A DNA stretch of 58,410 bases, taken from Patescibacteria group bacterium (lineage in GTDB: Bacteria > Patescibacteriota > Patescibacteriia > UBA9570). This document shows, piece after piece, positions 1 to 58,410 of this stretch. Below the pieces are notes generated by a model. The model was not told the origin of the DNA, ran no database searches, and saw only the letters and a list, made by a program, of their open reading frames with translations. The position numbers were made by a program, and so were the translations under genes. How positions within the stretch are numbered: position 1 is the stretch's first letter; the number at the start of each line of letters is the position of its first letter. The stretch covers positions 1 to 58,410 of the forward strand of contig JAJRVJ010000015.1 of the NCBI GenBank assembly GCA_024277435.1. Reading direction: 5' to 3'.

Positions 1-1
1 C

Positions 2-139
2 CTTTTACCGATTGCAGTGATCCATTCAGGCATCTGAATGGAAAATGTTCCATGGAACTGAGTATGAAAAAACAGGCTACATGGTCTGAGGTATTAGATT
101 TAATCTATTAAAAAACGCGCCAGATATGGAACGGTGACG
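2..139 (+). repeat. Terminal inverted repeat, left copy (138 bp)
   Basis: Reading the last 138 bases of the window as reverse complement reproduces positions 2-139 without a mismatch; similarity stops at 139/140, where the stop codon of the neighbouring GC-rich gene begins. The repeat contains three palindromes: TCCATTCAG/CTGAATGGA (21-42), GTTCCATGGAAC (47-58) and TAGATT/AATCTA (95-107). It lies at the 3' end of gene 140-466. It may be a dispersed repeat that ended assembly, or a true terminus. Confidence 0.9.
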
Positions 140-6766: not shown

Positions 6767-9373
6767 ATGCGAACAATCATTCTTACATCTATTATCGCTA
6801 CAGTAATCAGTTTGGTATTTCCGAGTTTGGCAGCAGCAGCTACTCTAGATACGGATTTAGAGCTTAATGCGCCGTATGACGACTCTAGCTACTTTGGTAG
6901 TCCAACCATGAATGTAGGTGATGTATCTGGAGATGGGATAGATGACTTAATGATTGGTGCCGCGGCCTTTGATGCGATTGGTGATGAAAATGGTGGTCCC
7001 GGCGCAGTGCACGTATACTATGGGCAAGATGGGGAGGAGTTAAGTGCATCTCCAGATTTAACTATTCTTGGAGAAAATGGTGGTGACGTGTTTGGTAGCT
7101 TAGTGCATTCATTTCCTGATGTATCTGGCGATGGTTTACCAGAGGTGATTGTTTCGGCGTATTATGCCGACACTGATGCCGATAGTCGTGGTGATGGAAG
7201 TAATCGTGGTAAAGTTTATTTTTTCACCAGTGAGAGTTTACAGGAAACATCAGAAGATAATATTTTTTCATTATCAGCATTATCAGATGGTTACCTCATG
7301 GGATATGAAGATGGTGATACGTTTGGAATTGACATTGAAGTGTATGAAGGAGAGAGCGATGCGTATTTAATGGTATCAGCTTCTAGTGCAGAGGATCAGA
7401 AAGGTGTAGTGTACTTTTTTAATAAAGATACTATTTCCGACATCATTAATAATGAAACCATTACTCTAGCAAAAGGTAGCGCAGATTTTAGCGTAGCCGG
7501 TGAAGAGGAGATGGATTTTTTTGGTTTAAATACCTTGGCCTGGACTGAAGGTGGTTACGTGGTGATGGCTTCAACGAGTTATGATAATGGTTCTGGTAGA
7601 GTATATTTCATGAAGGAATCAACGGTTGCGAATTATGTAGCTAATCCAGTATATGAATTCCCGGTGGTTTCATTGGCCGATGCTGTGATTACCGGTGCAG
7701 CTGAAAGTCAGTACTTTGGTTGGGTAAAGGCCGATGCTGGTAATGGTAGTATAGGTAGTGGACGATATCTTGCTCTTAGCGCGCCATATTATGATTCTAC
7801 AAATACTAATGATGGTAGGGTGTATATTTTTACAACAGCATTAATTGAAACTCTGGAAGAAGGTAGTGGCTTCGGAATAGCTGAAACGGATTCTATTATT
7901 GATTTATTGGGGGCTGGTGGTGAGAATGATCAATTTGGAATTCAAATGACGGGTGTAGGAACAGATTATTTTGCGATTGGTGAACGTGGGTATCATACAA
8001 ATGTTGGTGAAGTATATATGTTCGAAAATAGCACGCTCAATGCATTGGCAGATGATGACGACGCAAGTAGCCATGGAGCGCTTACCGAAGCTGATTTTAT
8101 AATGAATGGCGTTGGCGAAGAAAGCCATTTAGGATTGAATTTAGCGGAATTTGCCGAGGACTTGGACCAAGATGGTGTAAACGAAATTATTTTAGGCGCT
8201 CCTGGCAATACGCAATCAGGTAGTGAAACAGTTGGGCGAGCATTTGTAGTAAATTCTGGAAACTGGATGGGCTCTGCTGATCAAGTGAATTATACGGCGT
8301 TTACCGATCCGGTGTATCAAATGCAGGGTCAGCAAGACGGTGATGGGTTTGGCGGCATTCTTAACGGCCTAGGTGATTATGATGGAAATGGCGATATTGA
8401 TTTGTTAGTTGGGGCACTAAATTTTGATGACGATCGTGGTAAGGTGCACGCATTTTATAATCGTGAAGATGCTGATGGTGAGTACGAATATTTATTCTCA
8501 ATCGGTAAAAATAAGGGTAAGTATCAAGTGGATAATGTGGAAGAGCAAGCTGAAGGTGTGTCACTGAGCCTTAGTGCTAATATTTCTAATCAAAATAATT
8601 CCGTTCATACAGCATTGGGAGACGTTGATGGTGATGGAGATGTAGAGTTGTTGGTTACTTCAGCAAAAGAGAGTAAGTGTCATACTATTGAAGTGCGACA
8701 TTATAGTTCGAACAAAAAAGAAAAGTCCTTCAAAGTGTGTCATCCAAAAGAGCAGGCTACACGAGCGTATATTTCGGCTGGAGATTATTCTGGAAATGGG
8801 AAGGCAGAAATTGCTATAGCAATGCCAGATGGTGCAACTGGTACGTATGTGCAAATTCAGAAGCGCAAGAATAATGGTAAGTATAAAAAATTACGACGAG
8901 CCCGCCTACAAACCGGAATTGATTTTTCTGGCGGCGTATCGATATCTTCTGGTAATCTTTCGGAAACCAATAAAGAGCAGTTTGTGATAGCATCATTAAC
9001 GCGTAAGCAACAAGCCTTTGTATATAAATTAAACAATTCTTCGAAATTCAAACAGGTAAAGAAAAAGAAAGTGAATACTAAGAAGAAGGGCGTGTATGTA
9101 GCAATTGATAGTTCTACTAACACTTTGTATACGGTGCAGGTTGGTAAGAAAAAAGTACAAGCGTTTAGTTGGACTGGAAGTGGTTTGAAAAAGGATTCTA
9201 CTAAAACATTTACGGCTGGATTCAAGCCAAAAGGAATTGCGGCGGCGGGTGATGTTGTTGCGTTGGTAAAGAAGAATCAAAAATCTGTACGGTTTTATTA
9301 TCAAACAAATGGCATTCGAAATAAATCCTACAGCCAAAAAATTTGGAGCATAGATATAGTAGATAAGTACTAA
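6767..9373 (+). CDS. Secreted FG-GAP/VCBS repeat protein (868 aa)
   Basis: A signal peptide (hydrophobic 4-22, ending FPSLAAAA) is followed by repeated FG-GAP/integrin-alpha-like modules, each with a Ca-binding loop and a hydrophobic strand: DVSGDGIDDLMIGA, DVSGDGLPEVIVSA, DLDQDGVNEIILGA, DYDGNGDIDLLVGA, DVDGDGDVELLV and DYSGNGKAEIAIA. Such repeats fold as a calcium-bound beta-propeller and usually mediate surface adhesion. The last 200 residues are rich in lysine (KKKVNTKKKG, KKVQAF). No LPXTG or C-terminal anchor is seen, so it is either released or held by other means. TACATT lies five bases before the ATG. Ligand is unknown; a role in contact with a host cell is inference. Confidence 0.8.
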   Translation: MRTIILTSIIATVISLVFPSLAAAATLDTDLELNAPYDDSSYFGSPTMNVGDVSGDGIDDLMIGAAAFDAIGDENGGPGAVHVYYGQDGEELSASPDLTILGENGGDVFGSLVHSFPDVSGDGLPEVIVSAYYADTDADSRGDGSNRGKVYFFTSESLQETSEDNIFSLSALSDGYLMGYEDGDTFGIDIEVYEGESDAYLMVSASSAEDQKGVVYFFNKDTISDIINNETITLAKGSADFSVAGEEEMDFFGLNTLAWTEGGYVVMASTSYDNGSGRVYFMKESTVANYVANPVYEFPVVSLADAVITGAAESQYFGWVKADAGNGSIGSGRYLALSAPYYDSTNTNDGRVYIFTTALIETLEEGSGFGIAETDSIIDLLGAGGENDQFGIQMTGVGTDYFAIGERGYHTNVGEVYMFENSTLNALADDDDASSHGALTEADFIMNGVGEESHLGLNLAEFAEDLDQDGVNEIILGAPGNTQSGSETVGRAFVVNSGNWMGSADQVNYTAFTDPVYQMQGQQDGDGFGGILNGLGDYDGNGDIDLLVGALNFDDDRGKVHAFYNREDADGEYEYLFSIGKNKGKYQVDNVEEQAEGVSLSLSANISNQNNSVHTALGDVDGDGDVELLVTSAKESKCHTIEVRHYSSNKKEKSFKVCHPKEQATRAYISAGDYSGNGKAEIAIAMPDGATGTYVQIQKRKNNGKYKKLRRARLQTGIDFSGGVSISSGNLSETNKEQFVIASLTRKQQAFVYKLNNSSKFKQVKKKKVNTKKKGVYVAIDSSTNTLYTVQVGKKKVQAFSWTGSGLKKDSTKTFTAGFKPKGIAAAGDVVALVKKNQKSVRFYYQTNGIRNKSYSQKIWSIDIVDKY

Positions 9374-16009: not shown

Positions 16010-16180
16010 AAGTTCAATTTTCTGAACGGGCATTTACGAAGACCATATAATATTTATTCGGTCTATCTATATGCCCACTCAGAGTGTTGAACACTCATTC
16101 ATAATTGCGTCGAGAAATTGCTGAGGCCCAATTTTTAGTTGGCTCATCACGATTTCTCAACGCAGCCGTGAATAATTAAC
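16010..16180 (+). ncRNA. Hairpin-rich segment, candidate structured RNA
   Basis: Consecutive inverted repeats fill this stretch: GTTCA/TGAAC (about 16012-16026), GGGCAT/ATGCCC enclosing AGACC/GGTCT (about 16028-16076), GAGTGTT-GAACACTC (16082-16096), and a long stem starting TGCGTCGAGAAATT and closing GATTTCTCAACGCA with partial pairing inside. No reading frame is maintained. I cannot match it to 6S, tmRNA, RNase P or SRP RNA. The strand is not certain. Confidence 0.4.
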
Positions 16181-16269: not shown

Positions 16270-16509
16270 GGCCTTATTGTAATATCTCCAAACAGGAAAA
16301 AGGAGGTGTACATCAGCAATTTTGCTTTTGTACATCTTGCTCTTTCTTGTTTTTTTGTTCTTTTCAATCAAATCCTACTCAATGTTCGCACCTGCGTGTG
16401 AGTTACGAATTCTTTCGTGATTTACTCGCAGGTGTGGATGGGCCACACTCTGCAACATCAGCCAATGACAGGGATAATTTCATACCCCATAAGGCTAGTG
16501 GAGAGCGAT
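16270..16509 (+). promoter_or_regulatory. Structured leader of cassette B
   Basis: It contains AAAAAGGAGGTG (about 16297-16308), a hairpin built on AGCAA/TTGCT flanked by GTAC repeats with a following T-rich run, a long hairpin CACCTGC-GAGT-ACGAA against TTCGT-ACTC-GCAGGTG (16389-16434), and GTGTGG/CCACAC. Composition shifts from AT- to GC-rich at about 16430. An in-frame extension of gene B reaches back to 16417 but crosses the hairpin. Confidence 0.45.
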
Positions 16510-16722
16510 ATGTCTAAGGGCGTTCAGATTGATGTCGTGCAGGAGCAGGCTCCTTGCATCGTTAGTATCACCGGACCCAAGAGGGTGCAGTGTGCGCAGG
16601 AGATCGAGGCCATGAGCGCAGTACGGCACTCTCGGGTCGTGGAGGTTCGCTACGACGATGAGGCTATAACCGTAGTTGTATACGGTACACCTTGGTCGGA
16701 GGTTCAGGGCTGGTACAAGTAG
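16510..16722 (+). CDS. GC-rich orphan small protein (70 aa), cassette B
   Basis: I do not recognise this protein. The ATG at 16510 is chosen because GGAG lies six bases upstream, a ribosome binding site of a kind host genes here lack. The product MSKGVQIDVVQEQAPCIVSI... looks like a small alpha/beta fold with alternating hydrophobic strands (CIVSITG, VVEVRYD, ITVVVYG) and no membrane segment. Codon use is GC-rich, unlike the flanks. An imperfect long hairpin (GGGAGGGGT against ACCCCTCC, about 16750-16822) lies downstream. Foreign origin or a special expression class is inferred. Confidence 0.55.
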   Translation: MSKGVQIDVVQEQAPCIVSITGPKRVQCAQEIEAMSAVRHSRVVEVRYDDEAITVVVYGTPWSEVQGWYK

Positions 16723-23859: not shown

Positions 23860-23921
23860 AGATGTCCTCCAGGAGGAAGTGAACCTTCCAAAAATCAACT
23901 CAACTCTTACTCGAGGTGGCT
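23860..23921 (+). promoter_or_regulatory. Leader of cassette C with alternative hairpins
   Basis: TCCTCC-a-GGAGGA is a perfect hairpin; overlapping it, GGAAG can instead pair with CTTCC (loop TGAAC). The two structures exclude each other and one masks GGAGG. The ribosome binding site near the ATG is CGAGGTG. Confidence 0.4.
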
Positions 23922-24134
23922 ATGTCCATCAATGCTGATCAGTTCCGTGGCACCACTCCCAAGGCTGGTGTTGGTCGCCATGCAGTGGTGATCGGCGCAG
24001 GCGTGGTTGGCCTCATGTTGGCTTGGCGCCTGCTTGAGGATGGTTGGACTGTAACTGTTCTGGAGGCGAGCGGTGGTGTTTGGCTGATGTTCGCCAGCGC
24101 TTCCATTTCTAGGCATCTTTCCCTATACTGTTAG
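23922..24134 (+). CDS. GC-rich Rossmann fragment of an FAD oxidoreductase (70 aa), cassette C
   Basis: After about 20 residues the protein reads HAVVIGAGVVGLMLAWR and then TVTVLEAS, the complete beta-alpha-beta dinucleotide-binding unit (GxGxxG plus the acidic residue at the end of strand 2) of FAD-dependent amine-oxidase/DadA-like enzymes. It then breaks off: after about residue 52 the sequence loses similarity and stops at 70, where normal enzymes run to about 400 residues. It is therefore a truncated gene or a free-standing nucleotide-binding peptide. Composition is GC-rich between AT-rich genes, and GAGGTG precedes the ATG. Its end overlaps the -10 box of holA. Confidence 0.55.
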   Translation: MSINADQFRGTTPKAGVGRHAVVIGAGVVGLMLAWRLLEDGWTVTVLEASGGVWLMFASASISRHLSLYC

Positions 24135-39598: not shown

Positions 39599-39813
39599 AG
39601 TTTTCTTGTTAGAACGTGCCGTGGCTCGCTCTTGCTAATTATTTTGTTTTTGGTGGGTCCCGGCCACTGGTAACCGTCGTTGTTGCAGTGACCGGTCCGG
39701 ACCGTTTGGTCAATACTCCTTCCTAGGATTCTCCTATTGGCCAAGCAGTCAGGAGAGGTTTTCGACTACGCGCCTCGTGTAGCATTTTAGAAAACCTGCC
39801 CCGCTATAAGTTG
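39599..39813 (-). ncRNA. Long structured leader of lexA
   Basis: About 215 nt separate the predicted transcription start from the lexA ATG. Stems on the minus strand: AGGTTTTC/GAAAACCT (39756-39763 with 39790-39797); TTGGCCAAT/ATTGACCAA (one mismatch) enclosing TAGGA-gaa-TCCTA; and a strong hairpin at 39656-39703 (GGTCC plus CCGGTCACTG against CAGTGGCCGG plus GACC, about 15 pairs). The middle is GC-rich. No T-run follows. This is exceptional in a genome where most mRNAs look leaderless. Confidence 0.55.
39639..39713 (-). CDS. Possible leader peptide ORF upstream of lexA (24 aa)
   Basis: A TTG start is preceded by AGGAAGGAGTA, and the frame reads MTKRSGPVTATTTVTSGRDP.. to a TAA. The codons are GC-rich. 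The spacing between the Shine-Dalgarno-like bases and TTG is very short (about 2 nt), and the start lies in a stem, so translation is doubtful. It could be a regulatory uORF or an accident of the hairpin sequence. Confidence 0.25.
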   Translation of the reverse strand: MTKRSGPVTATTTVTSGRDPPKTK

Positions 39814-56859: not shown

Positions 56860-56980
56860 ATATTAAAAAGGAGTATAGCAAGGAAATGCTATGCTGTCAA
56901 CAATTGGTTGATATTTTTAGATTCTTGTTCAATATCTTCCTTTATTTACTAATTACTCATAAAGAACTGTATTGAGCAGG

Positions 56981-57022
56981 CTCCCTCGGAAACAACGATG
57001 TATAGTCGTTGCTCCGAGGGAT
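56981..57022. repeat. Long near-perfect hairpin downstream of cassette D
   Basis: TCCCTCGGA-aa-CAACGA pairs with TCGTTG-c-TCCGAGGGA, 15 pairs around a 7-nt loop. A smaller hairpin (GCGTC/GACGC) lies between it and the stop of cassette D. No T-run follows on either strand, so it may be a boundary or RNA-stability element rather than a terminator. Confidence 0.6.
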
Positions 57023-57074
57023 GGTTCTGCACTGAATTACCCATAGTAAGGGTGCGTCGTGAGAGACGCTTCCC

Positions 57075-57386
57075 TTAGAGGGTTCCGCGCCAACCGCCCA
57101 GCTCGTCGAGCGGGATCATCTGGTCGGGGGCGGGCAGGCCGTGGCTGGCGTGGCAGGTGACGCAGTCTGTGGTGTTGCCAAAGTCCAGGGAGTTTGGCAT
57201 CGGCTTCCAGTAGTTGCCGTACTCGTTGTAGCCGCCCAGCTCGTCGTTGTCGCTCGGCATCAGCCCCTCGAACAGCCGGTTGTCCAGGTTCACCTGGACC
57301 TGCCAGGCCGAGGGCCGCCACCAGAAGGCGATGAGGATGATGGTGGCGAGGATGGCCGCGAATCGGCCGGTAGTCAAGGTCTTCAT
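57075..57386 (-). CDS. GC-rich small exported protein with CxxCH motif (103 aa), cassette D
   Basis: The ATG at 57386 is preceded by GAGGAGGA four bases upstream, the strongest ribosome binding site in the window. A basic start (MKTLTTGR) and a hydrophobic stretch (FAAILATIILIAFWW) predict a signal anchor. The outer part has NDELGGYNEYGNYWKPMPNS and then DCVTCHASHG, a single haem-c attachment motif CxxCH. No distal Met ligand partner can be assigned with confidence. A c-type haem protein would be odd in this lineage unless maturation genes exist elsewhere. GC-rich throughout; unlike all neighbours. Confidence 0.55.
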   Translation of the reverse strand: MKTLTTGRFAAILATIILIAFWWRPSAWQVQVNLDNRLFEGLMPSDNDELGGYNEYGNYWKPMPNSLDFGNTTDCVTCHASHGLPAPDQMIPLDELGGWRGTL

Positions 57387-57429: not shown

Positions 57430-57510
57430 AAGTGCACGCCCGCGGCGAGAGATTCAGAATGGCAAATATATAATGGCCTTCTGTAAATCCCTCCACGCGA
57501 GCGTACACTT
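57430..57510 (-). ncRNA. Structured RNA element D (P0-P1-P2) in the leader of cassette D
   Basis: Minus strand: P0, about 14-15 pairs (57496-57510 with 57430-57444); P1, GGAGGGAT (57487-57494) with AUCUCU-CG-CC (57444-57453); 3-nt linker; P2, CAGAAGGC (57476-57483) with GCC-A-UUCUG (57455-57463); 12-nt loop rich in UA. The same fold occurs at 58201-58252 with compensatory changes. Confidence 0.6.
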
Positions 57511-57540
57511 ACTCTAAAAAGAACGTTGAATGTTTTGTAT

Positions 57541-57614
57541 TTCACATCCAAAGATAATGTTCCTCCTAAACATTTTTTACAAAAATATGCGCATCCATTA
57601 TCTATGAATGTGAA
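57541..57614 (-). other. Long two-part stem upstream of element D
   Basis: TTCACAT (57541-57547) pairs with ATGTGAA (57608-57614) and AGATAAT (57552-57558) with ATTATCT (57597-57603), separated by symmetric 4-base internal loops. The enclosed loop contains TAGGAGGAAC on the minus strand and ATTTTT/AAAAAT. It lies in the presumed leader of cassette D. Confidence 0.5.
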
Positions 57615-57787
57615 AACTATTGAGATGGTTGCATCTCATTAAGAAAGCTCGTTAACTTAAATATATCAGATCGATAATCATAGTGATATCTTATTAATAT
57701 AATTAGTTACCTACTTCACTATTTACCAATCTATTACGTAATTGATAAATAGTGGGCAGGAGCGGAAGGAGGCGAGGCGATGAACGA
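57615..57787. other. AT-rich intergenic DNA between cassettes D and E
   Basis: No gene seen. Hairpins: TGAGATG/CATCTCA (about 57627-57645) and a 9-bp stem CACTATTTA/TAAATAGTG (about 57717-57752) that could end cassette E transcripts. Confidence 0.45.
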
Positions 57788-58075
57788 CTAGGTCGTTATA
57801 CCGCACTCGTTGCCACCTTCCGCGGGGAGCAGAGTATACTCCCGCTTCTTCCTGAGCGTCGGACCGAACCAGAACCAGGCCGAGAGGGCCGGGACTGCGA
57901 CGGTGGCGCCGAAGAAGAAGATCGCCGCCAGGCCGCTGTTGCAGCAGGGCGCCGATCCGGCGGCCCAGTCAGCGCAGGCGTCAACGCCACTGGCGAGCAT
58001 CGCCAGGGTGAATAGGCCGATGATGGCCCAGCCGGAGCGATCCGGACGGGAAGGGGTGAGGGTTCTTGCTGCCAT
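57788..58075 (-). CDS. GC-rich small membrane protein (95 aa), cassette E
   Basis: The start at 58075 has GGAG about 10 bases upstream, next to a perfect hairpin GAGCGTGG/CCACGCTC. Two hydrophobic segments are visible (WAIIGLFTLAMLASGVDA, residues 15-32, and GLAAIFFFGATVAVPALSAWFWF, about 48-70), with Cys residues near the first loop (ACADWAAGSAPCC) that suggest a disulphide outside the membrane. The C-terminus is charged. No family recognised. Local GC reaches 43 of 60 bases (57901-57960), far above the host genes. The stop codon is inside a small palindrome. Confidence 0.55.
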   Translation of the reverse strand: MAARTLTPSRPDRSGWAIIGLFTLAMLASGVDACADWAAGSAPCCNSGLAAIFFFGATVAVPALSAWFWFGPTLRKKREYTLLPAEGGNECGITT

Positions 58076-58200
58076 AAGAGGGTCTCTCCAATGGAGCGTG
58101 GCTAAGTCCACGCTCACTATCAGCTACGGAGTTCAGACGAAAAATAAATAGAGGTCTGCTCGCGTAGCTAGTAGCGGGCGTGGATTAGGAACCACCCACT

Positions 58201-58252
58201 GGTAGGAATCGAGGAAACGGTGAATATATATTGACCTTCCTACAATTCCTCC
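58201..58252 (-). ncRNA. Structured RNA element E (P1-P2) in the leader of cassette E
   Basis: Minus strand: P1, GGAGGAAT (58245-58252) with AUUCCU-A-CC (58201-58209); 3-nt linker; P2, AGGAAGGU (58234-58241) with ACC-GU-UUCCU (58212-58221); 12-nt UA-rich loop (58222-58233). GCUCGC just 5' can pair with GCGAGC further 3' as P0. Same architecture as element D. Confidence 0.6.
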
Positions 58253-58272
58253 CAGCGAGCGCTCAGCCGCAG

Positions 58273-58410
58273 CGTCACCGTTCCATATCTGGCGCGTTTT
58301 TTAATAGATTAAATCTAATACCTCAGACCATGTAGCCTGTTTTTTCATACTCAGTTCCATGGAACATTTTCCATTCAGATGCCTGAATGGATCACTGCAA
58401 TCGGTAAAAG
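58273..58410 (-). repeat. Terminal inverted repeat, right copy (138 bp)
   Basis: Exact reverse complement of positions 2-139. It lies upstream of cassette E, whereas the left copy lies downstream of cassette A; both copies border a GC-rich orphan gene unit. Confidence 0.9.

Follow-up and report, generated by a model that had tools for sequence, protein, structure and literature searches.

An imperfect hairpin of ~80 nt, occurring singly or in tandem, is found in the long (150-900 nt) untranslated regions that precede some of the horizontally acquired GC-rich genes in the patescibacterial genome G000. The hairpin family is new to Rfam. Its fold is conserved through compensatory changes in two genera, it recurs before unrelated genes, and such leaders are associated with a boxA-like motif on the sense strand and fold better in the sense of the gene. 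The explanation that is favoured here, tentatively and with slightly less than even confidence, is that these hairpins form a new family of cis-acting leader RNAs that serve captured genes much as boxA leaders of the nut/rrn type serve in antitermination. More broadly, the evidence suggests that such genes have a leader or docking system which has so far gone unrecognised.

Gene loss is the expected course in bacteria with small genomes that probably depend on a host, yet G000 keeps dozens of apparently recent GC-rich acquisitions, and these are kept as orderly single-gene units. The hairpins bear on how small-genome bacteria acquire and express foreign DNA. A leader RNA that two genera have in common, although the genes it precedes differ, offers a testable handle, whether as an aid to polymerase passage or as the mark of a docking site, and the unit could be built into a reporter in a laboratory strain.

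The hairpin unit and its homologues

Coordinates without a contig name refer to the window, the whole stretch of 58,410 nt that was analysed, which is the entire contig C4 of G000. Hairpin units D (57430-57510) and E (58187-58268) lie on the minus strand at the sites given in the initial annotation, and both were confirmed by folding: the minus-strand fold of D has an energy of -46.1 kcal/mol (z -9.1 relative to dinucleotide-shuffled sequences) and that of E, folded as 58190-58270, an energy of -36.9 kcal/mol (z -3.9). Models R1-R3 give 85-103 bits for D. Unit D is composed of an outer stem of 15 bp, a 2x2 internal loop, a P1 stem of 8 bp, a P2 stem of 5+3 bp whose 3' strand has a 1-nt bulge, and a 12-nt AT-rich loop; unit E follows the same plan, and its 5' base overlaps the target duplication of an insertion sequence. 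The 52-nt motif is not an element by itself but the tip of this single ~81-nt hairpin (the isolated 51/52-nt cores of D and E have z values of -3.6 and -3.7), and the linker between P1 and P2 measures 2 nt on the 5' strand rather than the 3 nt first reported. The alignment of D with E (74% over 46 nt) contains the paired changes that had been read from it, G-C to A-U and G-U to G-C in P1 and C-G/U-A, A-U/G-C and C-G/A-U in P2, as well as an additional double change (G-C/U-A) in the outer stem. Directly abutting E in tandem is unit E2 (58104-58186, minus strand; -39.7 kcal/mol; 26-30 bits with models R2/R3), in which the architecture is kept and the sequence has diverged.

Two sequence features that had been attached to the hairpin did not hold for the family. 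The loop is AT-rich, but UAUAUAUU is not a general feature of it, as the loop differs in copy F and in the copies of genome G003. P1 had been thought to hide a Shine-Dalgarno-like GGAGG, but the AGGAGG of gene D immediately precedes the ATG at 57386 and is not part of the hairpin; the GGAGG of P1 was rejected both as a hidden Shine-Dalgarno sequence and as a leader-peptide start, since no start codon is found at a suitable distance 3' of it. The covariance models of 4227 Rfam families gave no match at D or E, in agreement with the initial annotation, which had matched the RNA to no family known to it; matches near D and E to sR-tMet and CcsR1 had E-values at chance level and were discarded.

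Far from being limited to the two copies first noticed, the unit is multi-copy and frequently tandem. When D and E were combined into a model, a search with it revealed one more strong copy, F (contig C29:50048-50127 of G000), upstream of a different GC-rich gene that encodes a signal peptide; D and F have the core in common, and their outer stems are largely different, yet both are paired. In this three-copy alignment 95% of cells are paired, and seven pairs have changes on both sides. The three-sequence model in turn matched two strong copies, G3a and G3b, in G003, a genome of another genus in the same family; CAGAAGGCC is common to D, F, G3a and G3b. Homologues exist in which pairs are kept through double changes: in the five strong sequences from the two genera 91% of pair cells hold, nine pairs show double changes (17 cells), and the covariation score is 0.54 versus 0.28 when shuffled. 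None of 500 shuffles reached the observed percentage paired, number of double-changed cells or covariation score, and pairing fell to 37-48% when partners were slid.

Weaker units with the same plan (18-35 bits) include the pairs at 16010/16095 and 58104/58187, a unit at C29:49860 and a run of three consecutive units at C16:59643-59894. Those designated B1 (16010-16093; 34.6 bits with R3, E 2e-7) and B2 (16095-16174; 34.3 bits with R3) stand in tandem on the plus strand upstream of GC-rich gene B (16510-16722, plus strand; 70 aa), and B2 has CTGAGGCCC...GGCTCATCACGATT in common with the unit at C16:59729. Among 381 genomes of the class, model R3 rose above chance in only G000 and G003; outside these two, models R1 (95 relatives) and R3 (the 381 class genomes) gave three matches with E ~1e-3 each, which is the number expected by chance. 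Core patterns had no match in IMG/VR or GTDB contigs.

GC-rich genes at fixed chromosomal sites

The assembly of G000 comprises 1.33 Mb in 34 contigs and is 97% complete. It contains ~56 GC-rich genes with a GC3 of 0.62-0.94, compared with ~0.3 for native genes, in a set that was picked by script and includes some misassigned frames. These genes look borrowed from other microbes; they mostly stand singly between native genes with long flanks, and several are accompanied by insertion-sequence copies. Gene D (57075-57386, minus strand) encodes a protein of 103 aa with one membrane segment and one CxxCH, and gene E (57788-58075, minus strand) one of 95 aa with two hydrophobic stretches and no family; both are GC-rich. 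Gene D deserves the name of orphan that it was given, as it has no relative in the 381 genomes of its class, and a comparison with phages and plasmids produced nothing beyond a single weak alignment, with a virus of haloarchaea. The gene E protein and a 434-aa cassette protein had no matches among viral contigs. The description of the hairpins as lying upstream of GC-rich orphan genes holds for D and E, but some of their relatives do not lie directly before a gene, as at locus B of G003. Further hairpins, both without a U-tract, are found on the minus strand downstream of gene D (56976-57031, z -6.0) and at or after the 3' end of gene E (57762-57824, z -4.8).

The assembly is interrupted by a multi-copy insertion sequence whose ends read GTCACCGTTCCATAT / GAGACCGTTTCAT and which generates target duplications of 9 bp; it is present at window positions 1-138 and 58274-58410 (the latter an end of the element on the minus strand) and at many contig ends. 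Its target duplications join nine contig pairs exactly, in addition to C16-C4. Since the duplication GCTGCGGCT at 58265-58273 is found again at the end of contig C16, the hairpin array continues into C16, and joining C16 to C4 at these 9 bp places ~8 tandem hairpins before gene E, with unit E at the end of the run. Several copies of the element lie inside GC-rich genes; gene F runs from C29 into C33, and the gene A side joins C24.

Other GC-rich stretches were observed in addition to these genes. The GC-rich segment at 23880-24130 is a truncated foreign gene: of an FAD oxidoreductase it encodes no more than the nucleotide-binding N-terminal part, after which the sequence is AT-rich again. The intergenic segment at 39630-39800 is GC-rich and contains strong inverted repeats, but a gene is not evident there. 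Larger GC-rich single units are found at C12:10144-18035, C13:363-4746, C14:29631-32195 and C9:113-862 of G000; their genes encode a purine nucleoside phosphorylase, an amidotransferase, Cu-binding MopE motif repeats and unknown proteins of 434 and 568 aa.

The same chromosomal intervals are occupied by different genes. In G000 guaB is preceded by units D and E, and in G003 it is directly preceded by G3a, where folD is on the other side and the neighbouring GC-rich gene is unrelated to genes D or E. In G000, folD is on C16, which is joined to C4 through the insertion sequence via GCTGCGGCT; the folD-guaB interval contains at least three GC-rich genes in G000 and one in G003. In genomes G001 and G002, too, guaB is preceded by an inserted gene, different ones again. 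In a second interval G000 has a single GC-rich gene (C19:113114), whereas G003 has three. At locus B of G003 a left and a right hairpin are present with no gene, and the right one is 90% identical to the hairpin downstream of the cargo at locus A of the same genome, where GYTCTTTACAACATT is found on both sides of the cargo. Because the same sites carry different genes, and because locus B is gene-free, the units seem to stay in place as cargo is gained and lost. The cargo was not found to be flanked systematically by repeats, either direct or inverted. An 88-nt repeat precedes the left hairpin at both G003 loci (L127 ~8267-8353, minus strand; L173 ~16530-16617, plus strand); it could encode a small peptide, MKNILTATLLSIKILGRI, and several differences between its copies are synonymous.

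Leader features and candidate functions

Strong hairpins (z<-5) within 150 nt upstream were found for 12 of 46 GC-rich genes in G000 versus 23 of 445 native genes (p 2e-5), a result also seen with a cruder gene list (11/34 versus 14/403), and in G003 for 6/16 versus 14/195 (p 1.5e-3), so that the odds are 6-13x higher for GC-rich than for native genes. In G000 hairpins are enriched downstream of GC-rich genes too. A k-mer comparison of leaders yielded TGTTCTTT/GTTCTTTA, which is boxA-like. On the sense strand G[TC]TCTTT lies upstream of 12/48 GC-rich genes in G000 (25%) versus 20/481 native genes (4%), with no antisense occurrence (p 5e-6), and in G003 upstream of 9/17 (53%) versus 9/255 (3.5%), with one antisense occurrence (p 5e-8); among the G003 genes obtained after the motif was fixed, four of seven were positive; these four are on the same contig, and three belong to a single array. 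The motif was found upstream of none of the six GC-rich genes in G002, the boxA-like core is absent within 350 nt of most GC-rich genes in G000, and it is absent from the joined array of ~8 hairpins before gene E. The native 16S leader has no obvious boxA-like copy, and the motif is therefore uncalibrated in this organism.

Sense-strand boxA sequences (GYTCTTTRA-like) are present in the leaders of D (GTTCTTTTTA) and F (GTTCTTTACAAT). In the D leader the core GTTCTTT (57518-57524, minus strand) lies 5-7 nt 5' of hairpin D and is itself preceded by an AT-rich hairpin, an inverted repeat at 57540-57616 (minus strand, z -5.2); a second core, CAGTTCTTTATGAG (56961-56967, minus strand), lies between gene D and guaB. 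The gene B leader has a hairpin at 16384-16440 (plus strand, z -9.6) that is preceded by boxA-like GTTCTTTTCAATCA (16357-16370). A hairpin was found within 50 nt 3' of boxA at 10 of 20 sites versus 6.3 expected (p 0.06), and the order hairpin-boxA-hairpin was not significant alone (p 0.06-0.10). Hairpins in GC-rich leaders are more stable in the sense of the gene by a mean of -4.2 kcal/mol (60 versus 24, p 3e-6), which favours a folded transcript; hairpins upstream of native genes have a smaller bias of the same sign, and G3a and G3b are exceptions in that they fold slightly better antisense. Leaders were not enriched for a strict promoter consensus (4/38 GC-rich versus 30/375 native), and a leader-trailer helix around the cargo was not significant (mean rank 0.41) and was not seen in G003.

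The leader of a GC-rich methyltransferase cassette on C24 of G000 (L068:3447-3546, minus strand) contains a SAM-I riboswitch (RF00162; 52 bits, above the gathering score), and at least one leader is for this reason very probably transcribed and regulatory. In G003 one GC-rich gene (L133, ~3718, minus strand) has a leader that, judged by eye, is also SAM-riboswitch-like. A Type III hammerhead-like RNA with an intact CUGAUGAG...CGAAA core was observed downstream of a GC-rich cassette gene at C1:31917-31985 of G000 (L040:11917-11985, minus strand); its 38 bits (E 4e-6) fall below the gathering score of 48.5.

From the observed structure a mechanism of antitermination is inferred by analogy. The leader would be transcribed, NusB/S10 would bind boxA and the hairpins would serve as further contacts; boxA and hairpins together may load an antitermination complex, as in lambda nut, rrn boxB-boxA-boxC or HK022 put, and RNA polymerase could then cross the long, untranslated and structured leader and the foreign GC-rich gene before terminating. 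As a conserved platform, the leader would stay at its fixed chromosomal site while the cargo gene is exchanged. NusB is encoded in G000, and NusG is single, with one PF02357 match in the genome. In E. coli, boxA has been shown to be necessary and sufficient for recruitment of the rrn antitermination complex (PMC10250234). The rrnB boxA has also been employed as an A/U-rich translational enhancer, the primer for which reads tgctctttaacaat (PMC2176067), and boxA could therefore act on translation.

The strongest rival, itself doubtful, is that the units are DNA rather than RNA elements: attC-like docking sites at which GC-rich cassettes are inserted and exchanged by folded-strand recombination, as in integrons, with GYTCTTT as part of the core site. 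Fixed slots with exchanged cargo, in the folD-guaB and the second interval, would be expected of such sites, as would a structure conserved far better than its sequence, attC-like bulges confined to one strand, an unoccupied locus B in G003 that keeps both hairpins, and a locus A cargo bracketed by GYTCTTTACAACATT. Against this, the R'' RYYYAAC / R' GTTRRRY pair is not correctly placed at D, E, E2, B1 or B2, the cargo lacks systematic flanking direct or inverted repeats, ~8 hairpins stand in tandem without intervening genes, and the motif is enriched mainly upstream of genes. A search of the 97% complete G000 with the general integrase-family model PF00589 returned one intact gene of 319 aa (C19:12871-13830), which we take to be a Xer-type housekeeping recombinase, and one broken copy, an integrase-family gene with several stops (C19:64820-65297). 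A capture platform unlike integrons, in which foreign GC-rich genes would be inserted at tandem ~80-nt folded sites in fixed slots of this reduced-genome family, exchanged, and expressed from a shared boxA and hairpin leader without an integron integrase, is rather unlikely.

Equally within the realm of RNA, the hairpin might not antiterminate but bind a protein or ligand, or protect the 5' end of the mRNA and insulate translation of the acquired genes. This reading is unlikely: the position in leaders, the sense-strand bias, the SAM riboswitch in a sister leader and the hairpins in boxA-less leaders would all accord with it, but it leaves unexplained the boxA enrichment that recurs in a second genus, and the apical loop, which is not strongly conserved, and the single simple stem are unlike those of ligand-binding aptamers. 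It is very improbable that the units are mobile or self-templating palindromes (MITE or REP-like) whose paired substitutions arose by template switching between arms and not by selection on a folded molecule. The units are, as such elements would be, multi-copy, tandem and intergenic with near-perfect inverted repeats, and the outer stems of D and F are indeed almost wholly different, yet each pairs; however, copies are few and very diverged, arm-to-arm copying would erase the conserved bulges and internal loop, and a strand asymmetry of stability is unexpected for double-stranded palindromes. No terminal signature or target duplication was seen by eye among the aligned copies, the repeat search having covered the cargo flanks.

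Comparison with known systems

An antitermination leader remains the preferred reading, and lambda nut and rrn boxB-boxA-boxC are alike in combining a boxA-type motif with hairpins in an untranslated leader; NusB and NusG are also present in G000. The G000 hairpins differ in being ~80 nt long and often tandem, as opposed to the short boxB, and in preceding single GC-rich foreign genes with a variable boxA-hairpin spacing, and an N protein is not known here. The put RNA of HK022 has two adjacent stem-loops in the leader that bind RNA polymerase directly, and thus provides a precedent for possible factor-light antitermination. The tandem hairpin pairs (58104/58187 and 16010/16095) are likened to it by description, although the G000 units are longer and sometimes accompanied by boxA. 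Antitermination of long operons by LoaP requires the dfn leader hairpin (PMC12691694); dfn is a small UNCG-type hairpin read by a NusG paralogue, whereas G000 has a single NusG-family gene. Integron attC sites are alike in the conservation of structure over sequence, the fixed position and the exchanged foreign cargo; the G000 hairpins, in contrast, are without R boxes, lie 5' of genes and in gene-free tandem runs, and no intact integron integrase was found in the genome with PF00589. The SAM-I riboswitch (RF00162) is a multi-helix aptamer, which hairpins D, E and F do not resemble. The hairpin family is in these respects set apart from lambda nut, put, LoaP and attC, and would, by analogy, only work like a boxA leader.
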